From: an uncultured Pelagibacteraceae bacterium
GTDB lineage: Bacteria; Pseudomonadota; Alphaproteobacteria; Pelagibacterales; Pelagibacteraceae
NCBI GenBank assembly: GCA_902612345.1
Contig: CACMDE010000004.1
Location: 1 to 64,000 of the forward strand
DNA: 64,000 nucleotides
Direction of reading: 5' to 3'
Position 1 is the first letter of the stretch. Each line of letters opens with the position of its first letter. Below, piece after piece: positions 20,593 to 56,899 of this stretch. The notes under the pieces were generated by a model. That model had not been told where the DNA came from. It ran no database searches and saw only the letters and a program-made list of their open reading frames with translations. The position numbers were made by a program, and so were the translations under genes.

Positions 20593-20920
20593 TTACTTTA
20601 GATGAATACATATTAACTAATGTTAAACCGATAACAATTAGAAATAATCCTAGAATAACTTGCCAGTTTAATGTCTGGCCATAAATTAAGTAGCCAAGTA
20701 TTGCTACTGTGAAAATACCCAGCCCACACCAAGTTGCATAAACTACTGCCAAAGGAAGTTTTGTCACAACAATTGACAAACAAAAAAATGCACAAATATA
20801 AAAAATGATAAGAAAACCAGTGGGTATTGGTTTACTAAATCCCTTTGTAACTGGTAGCAACATTGTGCCGGCAACTTCAAAAAAAGTAGCAGCAATCAAA
20901 ATTAAATATGTTTTAAGCAT
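20585..20920 (-). CDS. SMR-family small multidrug/guanidinium-type exporter
   Basis: This 111-residue inner-membrane protein has four hydrophobic helices and the SMR signature. The essential helix-1 Glu sits in ATFFEVAGT (about residue 15), and the helix-3 motif YATWCGLG is present (about 65). SMR proteins work as dual-topology dimers exchanging protons for cationic drugs, quaternary ammonium compounds or guanidinium; the substrate here cannot be decided. Its start base coincides with the last base of the prpE stop, so it is translated from the prpE transcript. This raises the possibility of a housekeeping export role. Confidence 0.87.
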   Translation of the reverse strand: MLKTYLILIAATFFEVAGTMLLPVTKGFSKPIPTGFLIIFYICAFFCLSIVVTKLPLAVVYATWCGLGIFTVAILGYLIYGQTLNWQVILGLFLIVIGLTLVNMYSSKVIN

Positions 20921-22815
20921 TATTTTAATATACCATTTTTTATTAAATTATCTTTTATTTCATCTAAAATCACAGGGTCATCTATTGTTGCTGGCATTTT
21001 ATATTCCTCTTTATCAGCAATTTTTCTAACTGTACCCCTTAATATTTTGCCTGATCTTGTTTTAGGTAATCTTTTAACAACTATCACAGTTTTGAAGGCT
21101 GCAACTGGTCCAACTTTATCTCTAACCATTTGAATACATTCTTTTGAAATAATTTCATTTTCTTTTGTAACTCCAGCTTTTAAAGCAATCAGACCAATTG
21201 GAAGCTGACCTTTCAATTGATCTTTAATTCCAATAACTGCACATTCAGCTACTGATTGATGTTCTGATAAAACTTCCTCTATTGCGCCAGTGGATAATCT
21301 ATGACCTGCAACATTTATAATGTCGTCTGTTCTAGACATGATCCAAACGTAACCATCTTCATCAATATGTCCCGCATCATAAGTTTGGTAATAACCTTCA
21401 TAATTTGTCATATAATTTTCTTTATATCTTTCATCGGCATTCCATAGTGTAGGAAAAGTACCAGGTGGCAAAGGAAGTTTTACAACTATATCGCCCATTT
21501 CATTTGGCTTTGCCAAAGTACTATCAGGTTTAATTATTTTTACATCATATCCTGGTACAGGTTTACATGCAGAACCATATTTAGTTTTTTGCATTTCGAT
21601 ACCAGTGCAATTTCCACTAATTGACCAACTTGTTTCTGTTTGCCACCAATGGTCGATTACAGGAACATTTAATAAATTTTCTGCCCACTTAATCGTATCT
21701 GGATCTGCTCTTTCACCAGCTAAGAATAAAGACTCAAATGAACTTAGATCATACTTTGAAAAAAATATTCCTTCAGGATCTTCTTTTTTAATAGCTCTAA
21801 ATGCTGTCGGCGCTGTAAATAAAGATTTAATTTTATAATCAGATATTATTCTCCAAAAAACTCCTGCATCTGGAGTCCCCACTGGTTTTCCCTCAAATAA
21901 GACAGTAGTACATCCCTTAAAGAGAGGGGCATAAACTATATAAGAGTGACCAACAATCCATCCAATATCACTTGCTGACCACCAAACATCATTTTCATCA
22001 ATATTATAAATATTCTTCATGGTCCATTTTAGAGCCGCAATATGTCCTCCCGTATCTCTTACAATACCTTTTGGCACACCAGTCGTTCCAGAAGTATACA
22101 AAATATATGCAAAATCATTTGATCTCATTTCAACACAATCTTTATCTTTTGCATTTGATAGTGCCTCATTCCATGTAATTTCTAATGGTGCCTTTAAATT
22201 TATTTCATGTCCTTTTCTTTGAAAAAAAACAACTTTTTCTATTTTGTGTTTGGCAAGATTTATAGCTCCATCTACTAATGGTCTATATTCAACTGTTCTT
22301 CCAGGCTCAAATCCACAAGATGCTGTAATTAAAATTTTTGCTTTGCTATCATCAATTCTACTTGCAAGCTCATTTGATGCAAAACCACCAAAGACAACCG
22401 AGTGTATTGCTCCAATTCTACCACAAGCTAGCATTGCAATAACCGCCTCTGGTATCATTGGCATATAAATAATAACCCTATCTCCTTTTTTAACACCAAG
22501 ATTGTCTAAAGCTCCCGCAAACTTCGAAACTTTTTCTTTAAGTTGGTTAAATGTAAATTTAGCTTTGTTACCAGTTATTGGACTATCGTATATTAATGCA
22601 ATTTTTTCACCTTTACCTTGATCAATATGGAAATCCAAAGCATTGTAACAAGTATTTGTAACTCCATCCTCATACCATTTATAAAATGGAGGATTAGATT
22701 TATTTAAAATTTTGGTAGGTTTTTTAAACCAAAAGATATCTTCAGATACACTTTTCCAAAAATCTTCAGGATTTTTTATTGAATTTTCATAAATTTGATT
22801 AAATTTTTGACCCAT
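20920..22815 (-). CDS. prpE: Propionyl-CoA synthetase (acyl-CoA ligase)
   Basis: This 631-residue AMP-forming ligase activates propionate, and perhaps acetate, with ATP and CoA. The N terminus NSIKNPEDFWKSVSEDIFW is the ACAS N-domain. The AMP-binding motif YILYTSGTTGVPKGIVRDTGG (about 233), WWQTETSWSISG, SRTDDIINVAGHRLSTG and the C-terminal catalytic lysine in KTRSGKILRGTVRK are all present. RDTGGH and WWSASDIGWIVGHSYIVYAPL resemble PrpE more than Acs. It is transcribed away from proteorhodopsin across a 215-base gap and is followed by the SMR gene. Confidence 0.9.
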   Translation of the reverse strand: MGQKFNQIYENSIKNPEDFWKSVSEDIFWFKKPTKILNKSNPPFYKWYEDGVTNTCYNALDFHIDQGKGEKIALIYDSPITGNKAKFTFNQLKEKVSKFAGALDNLGVKKGDRVIIYMPMIPEAVIAMLACGRIGAIHSVVFGGFASNELASRIDDSKAKILITASCGFEPGRTVEYRPLVDGAINLAKHKIEKVVFFQRKGHEINLKAPLEITWNEALSNAKDKDCVEMRSNDFAYILYTSGTTGVPKGIVRDTGGHIAALKWTMKNIYNIDENDVWWSASDIGWIVGHSYIVYAPLFKGCTTVLFEGKPVGTPDAGVFWRIISDYKIKSLFTAPTAFRAIKKEDPEGIFFSKYDLSSFESLFLAGERADPDTIKWAENLLNVPVIDHWWQTETSWSISGNCTGIEMQKTKYGSACKPVPGYDVKIIKPDSTLAKPNEMGDIVVKLPLPPGTFPTLWNADERYKENYMTNYEGYYQTYDAGHIDEDGYVWIMSRTDDIINVAGHRLSTGAIEEVLSEHQSVAECAVIGIKDQLKGQLPIGLIALKAGVTKENEIISKECIQMVRDKVGPVAAFKTVIVVKRLPKTRSGKILRGTVRKIADKEEYKMPATIDDPVILDEIKDNLIKNGILK

Positions 22816-22863
22816 TATGATTTGTTAATAAGAACCATTTTAATATAGATTTTATGTTACAGG

Positions 22864-22893
22864 TTGTATTTAATTTTAAAAAGTTAGTAAAAT
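22864..22893 (+). promoter_or_regulatory. Possible sigma-70 promoter of proteorhodopsin
   Basis: TTGTAT and TAAAAT are separated by 18 bases in the gap before the rhodopsin gene. The -10 matches five of six consensus positions and the -35 only three, so the call is weak in this A+T-rich DNA. If correct, the 5' leader would be about 130 bases long and would contain the three inverted repeats listed next. The rest of the 22816-23030 gap shows no ORF. Confidence 0.3.
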
Positions 22894-22927
22894 CAATACT
22901 TTTTAATGTCCAAAAAAACTTTTAATA

Positions 22928-23002
22928 CCTAAGTAATTTTGTTATTAAGCCCCTAACTTAGGAATGACCACTATGGTTATTCTGTAGTTTAAATTTAAAC
23001 TA
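22928..23002 (+). repeat. Three adjacent inverted repeats in the proteorhodopsin leader
   Basis: Three inverted repeats lie end to end. CCTAAGT pairs with ACTTAGG (22928-22934 with 22956-22962). AATGACCA-CTA-TGGTTATT makes an eight-pair stem with one G-U (22963-22981). The 18-base perfect palindrome TAGTTTAAATTTAAACTA is at 22985-23002. They end 13 bases before the ribosome site GAGGGAG. No U-run follows any of them, so they are not simple terminators. They may form a structured 5' UTR, or the palindrome may be a protein site. Confidence 0.5.
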
Positions 23003-23030
23003 TAAATAAACGAAAGAGGGAGTTTTTAAT

Positions 23031-23801
23031 ATGAAAAAACTTAAACTTTTTGCGCTAGCATCAATTGCTCTATTGGGCTTTTCAGGTGCTGCAAACGCAG
23101 AAACTGTTCTCTTAGCCGCTGATGACTTCGTTGGAATATCTTTTTGGGTAATTTCAATGGGTATGTTAGCTGCTACTGCATTCTTTTTCATGGAAAGAGG
23201 ATCAGTTGCATCTGGTTGGAAAACTTCAGTAACAGTTGCAGGTCTTGTAACTGGTATTGCATTTATCCACTACATGTACATGAGAGGTGTATGGGTACAA
23301 ACTGGTGAGTCACCAACAGTATATAGATACATTGACTGGCTAATCACTGTGCCATTACAGATGATTGAATTCTATTTAATTCTTGCAGCTGTAAGAAAAG
23401 TACCAGGTGGTATTTTCTGGAGATTATTAATTGGATCTTTAGTAATGCTAATTGGTGGATACTTAGGAGAAGCAGGATACATCAACGCACTACTTGGTTT
23501 CATTATCGGTATGGCTGGATGGTTCTACATCTTGTATGAAGTGTTCTCAGGTGAAGCTGGTAAAGCGGCAGCTAAAAGTGGTAACAAAGGTTTGTCTACT
23601 GCATTTGGCGCAATGAGAATGATCGTAACAATTGGTTGGGCAATTTACCCATTAGGTTATGTATTTGGTTACCTAACTGGTGGTGTAGATGCAAATTCAC
23701 TTAACGTGATTTACAACCTAGCAGACTTTATTAACAAAATCGCATTTGGTTTAGTTATTTGGGCTGCAGCGATGCAAAATACATCAGCTAGAGCAAGATA
23801 A
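23031..23801 (+). CDS. Proteorhodopsin, blue-absorbing type, light-driven proton pump
   Basis: The 256-residue retinal protein pumps protons outward across the inner membrane in light. A signal peptide (MKKLKLFALASIALLGFSGAANA) precedes seven membrane helices. Key residues match green proteorhodopsin shifted by five: H80 (H75), D102 (acceptor D97) in RYIDW, E113 (donor E108) and K236 (Schiff-base K231) in NKIAFG. The spectral tuning position, equivalent to L/Q105, is Q110 in VPLQMIE, predicting blue absorption. A strong ribosome site GAGGGAG precedes ATG. Codons use more C endings (TTC, TAC, ATC, AAC) than neighbours, suggesting high expression. A strong terminator follows. Confidence 0.97.
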   Translation: MKKLKLFALASIALLGFSGAANAETVLLAADDFVGISFWVISMGMLAATAFFFMERGSVASGWKTSVTVAGLVTGIAFIHYMYMRGVWVQTGESPTVYRYIDWLITVPLQMIEFYLILAAVRKVPGGIFWRLLIGSLVMLIGGYLGEAGYINALLGFIIGMAGWFYILYEVFSGEAGKAAAKSGNKGLSTAFGAMRMIVTIGWAIYPLGYVFGYLTGGVDANSLNVIYNLADFINKIAFGLVIWAAAMQNTSARAR

Positions 23802-23823: not shown

Positions 23824-23866
23824 AAATAGGGCGAGTATGTTTTACATACTTGCCCTATTTTTTTAT
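23824..23866 (+). terminator. Rho-independent terminator after proteorhodopsin
   Basis: A 17-pair stem, AAATAGGGCGAGTATGT against ACATACTTGCCCTATTT with a single G-U pair and a three-base loop, is followed directly by a T-run. It lies 22 bases after the rhodopsin stop and before the ferredoxin gene. It should make most rhodopsin messages monocistronic, with limited read-through into ferredoxin. It is the strongest hairpin in the window. Confidence 0.93.
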
Positions 23867-31832: not shown

Positions 31833-33538
31833 TGGTTAAAGTTTCTAGAGCAGCTTATGCAGATATGTATGGTCCTACTACTGGAGACAAAGTAAGGCTT
31901 GCGGATACTGACTTATTTATTGAGGTTGAAAATGATCTAACCATTTATGGTGAAGAGGTAAAGTTTGGTGGTGGAAAAGTAATTAGAGACGGGATGGGCC
32001 AATCACAAACTAGCAGAAAAAAGGGAGCTGCTGATACAGTTATTACTAATGCTTTAATAGTTGATGTGGATGGAATTTATAAAGCTGATGTTGGTTTAAA
32101 AGATGGAAAAATTTTTGAAATTGGCAAAGCTGGAAATCCAGATACTCAATCTAAAGTAAATATTGTTATTGGTCCAGGAACAGAGATAATTGCTGGAGAA
32201 GGAAAAATTTTAACCGCAGGAGGTTTTGATAGTCATATTCATTATATATGTCCTCAACAAATTGATGATGCCTTACACTCAGGTATCACAACTATGCTTG
32301 GAGGAGGGACTGGGCCTGCTCATGGCACACTTGCAACAACTTGCACACCAGGTCCATGGCATATCGAAAGAATGATTCAATCTGCTGATGGTTTCTCTAT
32401 GAATTTAGCTTTTGCTGGTAAAGGAAATTCTTCTTTACCAGATGGCCTTCAAGAACAAATTCTTGCTGGAGCTTCAGCTCTCAAATTACATGAAGATTGG
32501 GGAACCACTCCTGCAGCAATTGATAATTGCTTGAATATTGCTGATAAAAATGATGTACAAGTTATGATTCATACAGATACTTTAAACGAAAGTGGATTTG
32601 TAGAAAATACTATAAAAGCAATAAACAAAAGAACTATTCATGCTTTTCATACAGAGGGTGCTGGTGGCGGGCATGCTCCAGATATAATTAAAGTTTGTGG
32701 AGAAGAGCATGTTATTCCCTCCTCAACAAATCCGACCAGACCATATACAGTCAATACAATAGAGGAACATTTAGACATGCTTATGGTTTGTCACCATCTC
32801 GATAAATCTATTCCAGAAGATGTAGCATTTGCTGAAAGTAGAATTAGACGAGAAACAATTGCAGCAGAAGATATTCTTCATGACATGGGGGCTTTTTCAA
32901 TTATTGCATCTGATAGCCAAGCAATGGGAAGAGTTGGAGAAGTTATAATTAGGACTTGGCAAACTGCACATAAAATGAAAGTTCAAAGAGGAAGTTTACC
33001 AGAAGAAAAAGGGAATAATGATAACTTTAGAGTTAAAAGGTATTTAGCAAAATATACAATTAATCCAGCAATTGCTCATGGAATTTCAAAATATATTGGT
33101 AATATTAAAAAAAATAAACGAGCAGATTTAGTTTTATGGGACCCAGCATTTTTTGGTGCTAAACCTGAGATGATATTGATAGGAGGAAGTATAGCTTGTG
33201 CTCAAATGGGAGACCCAAACGCGTCAATTCCAACTCCACAGCCAGTATATACTAGACCAATGTTTTCATCGTTTGGAACTTCGTTAGAAAAATCTTCAGT
33301 AATTTTCACAAGCAAATTGGCCCTTGAAAAGAACTCATTAAAAAATGCAAGTATAAGAAAAGATTTATTGCCTGTTGAAAATACAAGATCTATTTCAAAA
33401 AAAGATATGATTCTAAATAATAAATGTCCAAAAATTGAGGTAAATCCAGAGACATATGAGGTAAAAGCTGATGGTGAAATAATTACTTGTGAACCAGCAA
33501 AAGAGTTACCTTTGGCACAAAGATATTTTATGTTTTAA
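31832..33538 (+). CDS. ureC: Urease alpha subunit (catalytic, nickel)
   Basis: The 568-residue catalytic subunit of urease carries every active-site residue. Nickel ligands are H135 and H137 (DSHIHY), carbamylated K218 with H220 (ALKLHED), H247, H273 and D361 (SDSQAMG). The mobile flap holds C320 and H321 (VCHHLD). These are offset by one from Klebsiella urease, so the enzyme should be intact. With adjacent ureA and ureB it forms the (alpha-beta-gamma)3 enzyme. No urea or nickel transporter gene lies in the window. Confidence 0.98.
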
Positions 33539-36955: not shown

Positions 36956-36979
36956 TTAGGTTGTATTTTGAGTCTGTAA

Positions 36980-37001
36980 GTGAATCAAAAGTGAATCAAA
37001 A
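36980..37001. repeat. Tandem 11-base direct repeat between umuD and the SOUL gene
   Basis: GTGAATCAAAA occurs twice in succession. Eleven bases is about one helical turn, as in many operator arrays. It lies upstream of both the minus-strand umuD promoter and the plus-strand SOUL gene. The remaining 37002-37073 region has no ORF and no convincing promoter hexamers. Confidence 0.4.
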
Positions 37002-37073
37002 CGAGAACATATAAACTACATATTGTGCTATTGTGGATAACTTAAACCAAGGATAGTTTAAAAATATACTAAA

Positions 37074-56716: not shown

Positions 56717-56739
56717 AGAATTTGTGATATAATAATATT

Positions 56740-56899
56740 GCGGAAGAGACTACTTCAATGTAGAGCCGAAGGAGCAACCACCCCGGAATCTCTCAGGCAA
56801 AAGGACCGCGCATATTAACTCTGGAAAAAGAACAGAAGTTCTTGCCGAAGGAGCAAAACTCTCAGGCCAATAGACAGAGGGGGTAAAAGAGTTAATATG
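56740..56899 (+). promoter_or_regulatory. Tandem glycine riboswitch with a start-codon-blocking platform
   Basis: Two glycine aptamers lie in tandem. Aptamer 1 (about 56740-56809) is closed by GCGG/CCGC and aptamer 2 (about 56819-56880) by CTCTG/CAGAG. Both contain the conserved GCCGAAGGAGCAA and TCTCAGGC blocks. The linker CATATTAACTCT (56811-56822) is the exact reverse complement of AGAGTTAATATG (56888-56899), which includes the gcvT ATG. That pairing shares CTCT with aptamer 2 P1, so the two are mutually exclusive. Glycine binding should free the start codon and turn on gcvT. Glycine-activated riboswitches are known in SAR11. Confidence 0.95.

Follow-up and report, generated by a model that had tools for sequence, protein, structure and literature searches.

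The DNA analysed here, referred to as the window, is a stretch of 64,000 nucleotides from an uncultured bacterium of the Pelagibacteraceae, and contains a proteorhodopsin gene. SAR11 are the most abundant bacteria in the ocean, and their proteorhodopsin, a light-driven proton pump, ranks with the planet's most abundant light-harvesting systems. The gene is separated from a divergent open reading frame by an intergenic space at 22816-23030, in which there are two adjoining hairpins, here named P1 and P2. The features of the locus are as follows.

20920-22815, divergent: open reading frame upstream of proteorhodopsin, acetyl-/propionyl-CoA synthetase-like by sequence
22919-22924, + strand: probable -35 element CTTTTA, which in relatives is of the CTTC type, with an 18-bp spacer, from the sequence
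22943-22948, + strand: -10 element TATTAA with an upstream TG, from alignment to the HTCC7211 -10
22956, + strand: inferred transcription start site, to about ±1 nt, by homology to the HTCC7211 start site at 529616
22961-22983, + strand: hairpin P1, 9 bp plus a closing G-U, with a 3-nt loop at 22971-22973; 5'-terminal in the mRNA
22985-23002, + strand: hairpin P2, the near-invariant perfect palindrome TAGTTTAAATTTAAACTA; in the window the stem extends to 22983-23004
23015-23022, + strand: Shine-Dalgarno region AGAGGGAG, from the sequence; GGGAG is invariant in A2
23020-23042, + strand: weak hairpin GAGUUUUU/AAAAACUU whose loop contains the start codon, from folding
23031-23801, + strand: proteorhodopsin gene, 256 aa, an open reading frame with orthologs 75-100% identical
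23824-23860, + strand: intrinsic terminator after proteorhodopsin, a stem of 17 bp with a T run after it

The terminator is strong, and the ferredoxin operon downstream of it is probably expressed mostly from elsewhere.

Start sites have been mapped on Pelagibacter HTCC7211 by metatranscriptomic dRNA-Seq (Hou et al. 2016, PMC5069720), and Table 2 of that work lists bacteriorhodopsin at 529616-530457, with a start site ranked 10th. The coordinates in this table count the 5'UTR where a start site is given, because glcB has 2325 nt and a start 162 nt upstream in the text, while groL and tuf, which have no start site, are listed with plain gene lengths. In genome G163 the proteorhodopsin gene ends at exactly 530457 and its ATG lies 74 nt past 529616, and behind most of the other start sites in Table 2 there is also a suitable start codon in frame; the coordinates are therefore those of HTCC7211. 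The HTCC7211 leader is 74 nt long, with the published start 7 nt after the -10 element and 5 nt ahead of P1, and its mRNA reads, in order, AUCUU, P1 (GGUUUAGG-UAAA-CCUAAGCC), P2 (UAGUUUAUAUAAACUA), a linker, AGAGGGAG, UUUUUU and AUG.

When the -10 boxes are aligned, the window has by homology a start at about 22956, again 7 nt after the -10 element and 5 nt before P1, and a leader of 75 nt, not the approximately 130 bases given in a preliminary description of this DNA. The inferred start is thus upstream of both P1 and P2; a start downstream of 23002, which had been considered there, is not what the published map gives. The motif CTTY sits 20 nt 5' of the -10 hexamer in 108 leaders. As had been described, terminator-like sites are absent from the leader, and most genes are almost leaderless: among 19 other HTCC7211 genes with published start sites that were checked, 18 have leaders of 0-31 nt, the 19th being atpE with a doubtful value of 77.

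Three back-to-back stems had been reported in the leader. The second and third, P1 and P2, are a conserved RNA element and are kept in relatives, but the first (22928-22962) lies outside the mRNA as a hairpin. Its arms, CCTAAGT at 22928-22934 and ACTTAGG at 22956-22962, do form a repeat; this spans the -10 element and the start site, and is therefore not an mRNA hairpin. In relatives whose proteorhodopsins are 97-99% identical (L001, L004 and L007) the repeat is disrupted. A CCCC/GGGG pairing obtained by folding 22900-23050 was discarded because it needs bases upstream of the inferred start. The second repeat, placed originally at 22963-22981, does adjoin the palindrome, its true extent being slightly larger, at 22962-22982 (9 bp) with a closing G-U at 22961-22983. 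The third is present as reported, a perfect palindrome of 18 bp (22985-23002).

The P1 stem is conserved as RNA: its sequence is almost free, and its pairing is kept. Folded from the inferred start, P1 and P2 together give -15.8 kcal/mol (z -4.57), and none of 200 shuffles was as stable. The palindrome is found in 110 of 111 distinct leaders, and beside it a P1 stem of at least 7 bp occurs in 89% of the 111, versus 3.8% of shuffles. The arms of this stem are diverse (GGAATGACCA, GGCTTAGG, TGGATCTATT, TAGGCTAATC, TGGTTGCAAT, GAATTCA). A plain MAFFT alignment with its columns fixed gives pairing in 83.5% of P1 cells, compared with 76.8 ± 0.7% when shuffled; in a structure-fitted alignment, which is biased towards the structure, the value is 93.1%, all eight core pairs have changes on both sides, and there are 225 double-changed cells against 69.6 ± 7.9 shuffled. 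On the coding-sequence tree, 112 double changes preserve pairing, where mis-registered or permuted controls give 8-13; the count of 112 is inflated by the stems having been picked per sequence. Among the imperfect pairs there are 240 G-U and 53 A-C, where shuffles give 6957 and 5105 respectively, the two kinds having been weighted alike in the choice of stem. Symmetry at the DNA level cannot give such an excess, and what is conserved is therefore RNA of the sense strand, that is the proteorhodopsin strand.

The predicted 5' tail before P1 is 3-6 nt long in 168 of 191 leaders. The P1 loops are mostly GAAG, GAAA, AUUA or GUAA, and many are stable tetraloops. In g5 and g6, two other genera, the stem is longer and unrelated in sequence, with its pairing intact. 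Two further candidates were rejected here: a leader peptide, since the 7-codon ATG frame within P1 arises by accident from the P1 sequence of this clade, and pairing of the 5' tail with the ribosome site, the tail sequence being unconserved.

The arms of P2, TAGTTTA...TAAACTA, make a perfect palindrome in 197 of 206 distinct leaders. Its centre has changed about nine times on the tree, each time to another self-complementary centre (AATT, TA, TATA, TTAA, ATAT), and the 16 bp and 18 bp forms interchange. Across lineages the centres cover all four possible A/T tetramer palindromes, which a hairpin loop would not need. The sole recurrent change in the arms replaces the A at position 2 of the 5' arm by G, which keeps a G-U pair; it arose four times, and its mirror never. 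The gap from the end of P1 to P2 is 0-2 nt at any P1 length, and the hairpins therefore probably stack. The exact palindrome has one copy in the window's own genome and one in each relative, at proteorhodopsin only, and a search for a palindrome regulon gave no further exact copy in the own genome, with other matches at chance level. Among imperfect palindromes, TAGTTTAAAAATATACTA at 37054-37071 is 3 nt 5' of a start codon, such matches being at chance level.

The only parts of the leader that are conserved in sequence are P2, the linker and the ribosome site, while the P1 arms and loop vary freely. A further helix, P3, would be formed by AAAAACU in the leader with AGUUUUU around the ribosome site. 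Of 206 leaders, 194 are predicted to have it, and one compensatory change, from AAAAAC/GUUUUU to GAAAAC/GUUUUC, distinguishes genera; it is not predicted in the window's own clade, where AGUUUUU can pair with codons 2-5. P3 is treated here as secondary. In most relatives AAAAACU is present on both sides of AGUUUUU, in the leader and in codons 2-5, so that two mutually exclusive hairpins are possible, around the ribosome site or around the AUG.

A covariance model was built from the leader alignment and run on the own genome and on order-level genomes. In the own genome there is one significant site (E 8e-10, the next being 0.6), and at the order level the model matches 207 of 297 genomes, G163 at 529602-529689; G161 likewise carries the element. 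There is one significant match per genome, and those checked, in the own genus, g5 and g6, are directly upstream of proteorhodopsin. The match in g4 is off target, and the second matches in G268, G294 and G339, together with the match in G242, are weak, lack the palindrome and the leader organisation, and are attributed to chance. Most of the genomes without a model match, among those checked, are also without a proteorhodopsin match. The element is absent from the proteorhodopsins of 64-68% identity in three other genera (g2, g3 and g4), from an own-genus proteorhodopsin of 64% identity, and from paralogs at about 47%. A divergent proteorhodopsin of the same genus (64% identity, L134 in G084) has only a decayed leader remnant, ATAGTTTATACAGATAATA. 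Nineteen other top start-site genes of HTCC7211 have no comparable hairpins, their leaders being short or unstructured. The two-hairpin element is unique to the proteorhodopsin leader and is kept across three genera, and its existence as an RNA element is well supported.

The leader has no gathering-score match in Rfam 15, permissive scans giving chance matches only, and neither a description of the element nor a cis-element for control of SAR11 proteorhodopsin was found in the open-access literature. Comparison with published Pelagibacter intergenic RNA motifs had been suggested in the preliminary description. The motifs of Meyer et al. 2009 (rpsB, rpsL, ffh, SAM-V, SAR11_0636 and others; PMC2704228) are likewise conserved structured intergenic RNAs of SAR11, and mostly cis-acting leaders; however, their candidate table (>100 bp, >26% GC) does not include the intergenic region ahead of proteorhodopsin, and rhodopsin is unmentioned. 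Known RNAs that Rfam does identify in the window are a 5' ureB sRNA at 31989-32262 (- strand), a SAR11_0636 sRNA at 36959-37048 (+ strand) and a glycine riboswitch at 56731-56818 (+ strand).

A likeness can be seen to the ompA-type 5' stabiliser leaders of E. coli, which also place a 5' stem-loop on an abundant membrane-protein mRNA, keep structure over sequence, and occur in a host with RNase E and RppH. The SAR11 leader differs in its 5' tail of about 5 nt and in P2, which is invariant in sequence and self-complementary. It may thus be regarded as a structured 5' leader akin to a stabiliser and unusual in having an invariant hairpin that is self-complementary.

We hypothesise, with somewhat short of an even chance of being right, that the leader forms a hairpin at the 5' terminus which protects the mRNA against RppH and RNase E, with P2 as a sequence-recognised partner. 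Lying at the extreme 5' end, in many leaders closed by a stable tetraloop and probably in a stack with P2, P1 would hinder both RppH and the 5' sensor of RNase E from acting on that end. The shielded end would give a longer-lived mRNA and more protein per transcript, and a factor recognising P2, either an RNA-binding protein or a second RNA, would tune the protection or the access of ribosomes. It is established for E. coli that a structured 5' end protects an mRNA by keeping RppH and RNase E from acting, since RppH and the RNase E 5' sensor require single-stranded 5' ends (reviewed in PMC3997798). The leader has a stem-loop within a few nt of the 5' end, in which pairing is kept and sequence is free, and the decay enzymes are encoded by the host, RNase E and RppH being above the cut-off in four genomes. 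Against this, B. subtilis RppH needs 2-3 nt unpaired (PMC3997798), which the 5-nt unpaired tail exceeds, so that protection by P1 may be incomplete; the promoter alone could explain high expression; and a plain stabiliser needs neither the invariance of P2 nor its self-complementary centre. It is because a plain stabiliser explains neither the 5-nt tail nor the invariance of P2 that a recognising factor is considered likely. A bolder version, which we regard as a long shot, is that P2 is recognised in a manner new for bacterial leaders, through an RNA-binding protein specific to SAR11 that would match phototrophy to energy status, or through mRNA-mRNA pairing in tiny cells, conceivable because P2 is fully self-complementary in both RNA and DNA. 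If true, this would be the first case of a rhodopsin with an RNA regulator dedicated to it.

The invariance of the P2 arms while P1 drifts, and a centre that is always self-complementary and hence gives the full dyad symmetry of a dimeric DNA site, also suit a different arrangement, in which P2 acts as DNA: a homodimeric transcription factor bound to this operator at about +30 to +47 would repress or tune the promoter, and P1 would be a separate RNA hairpin. P2 does resemble the palindromic operators of dimeric transcription factors in being a perfect dyad near a start site. However, its half-site spacing differs by 2 bp between lineages rather than being fixed, the recurrent change to G is compatible with G-U in RNA and confined to one arm, P2 abuts an RNA hairpin of any length, and there is a single copy per genome and no regulon, although a regulator of one gene is possible. 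We rate an operator as unlikely but a live alternative, and tentatively place the RNA reading of P2 ahead of the DNA reading. The stability element, RNA regulator or light/nutrient operator suggested in the preliminary description can be narrowed in the same way: a structured, proteorhodopsin-specific leader is borne out by the covariation, the G-U bias, the start site and the one copy per genome, but no tie to light or nutrients was found, nor a regulon.

Translational control, which we rate on a par with the operator, would have AGUUUUU, located between the Shine-Dalgarno site and the AUG, pair either with the upstream AAAAACU, putting the ribosome site in a loop, or with AAAAACUU in codons 2-5, putting the AUG in a loop, the balance being shifted by a factor, cold-shock proteins or temperature. 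The wide prediction of P3, and its GAAAAC/GUUUUC form in another genus, are consistent with this, as is the report that protein and mRNA changes in Pelagibacter are largely decoupled, with CspE and CspL as proposed regulators (PMC2864753). But P3 is missing in the window's own clade, its helices are nearly all A-U, poly-A and poly-U pair by default in AT-rich leaders, and P1 and P2 are left unexplained. A metabolite-binding riboswitch might be expected from the conserved structured 5'UTR and the heavy use of riboswitches in SAR11 (PMC2704228), but is very improbable: there is no conserved unpaired core or loop for a pocket, the P1 loop and arms varying freely, and there is no Rfam match, no terminator and no alternative pairing kept across lineages. 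Palindromes are common in AT-rich sequence, and functionless chance repeats account for stem 1; for P1 and P2 this explanation is refuted by the covariation in three genera and the near-invariance of P2, and as an account of the leader it has practically no chance of being correct.

With a 75-nt leader and a published start site, the way in which SAR11 sets the level of its proteorhodopsin becomes directly testable, and the element provides a conserved landmark for metatranscriptomes. It is worth adding that a palindrome scan of viral contigs gave many matches, and that contig L406 carries four copies of TAGTTTANNNNTAAACTA at 755-862, exactly 30 bp apart, in an operator-array-like arrangement.
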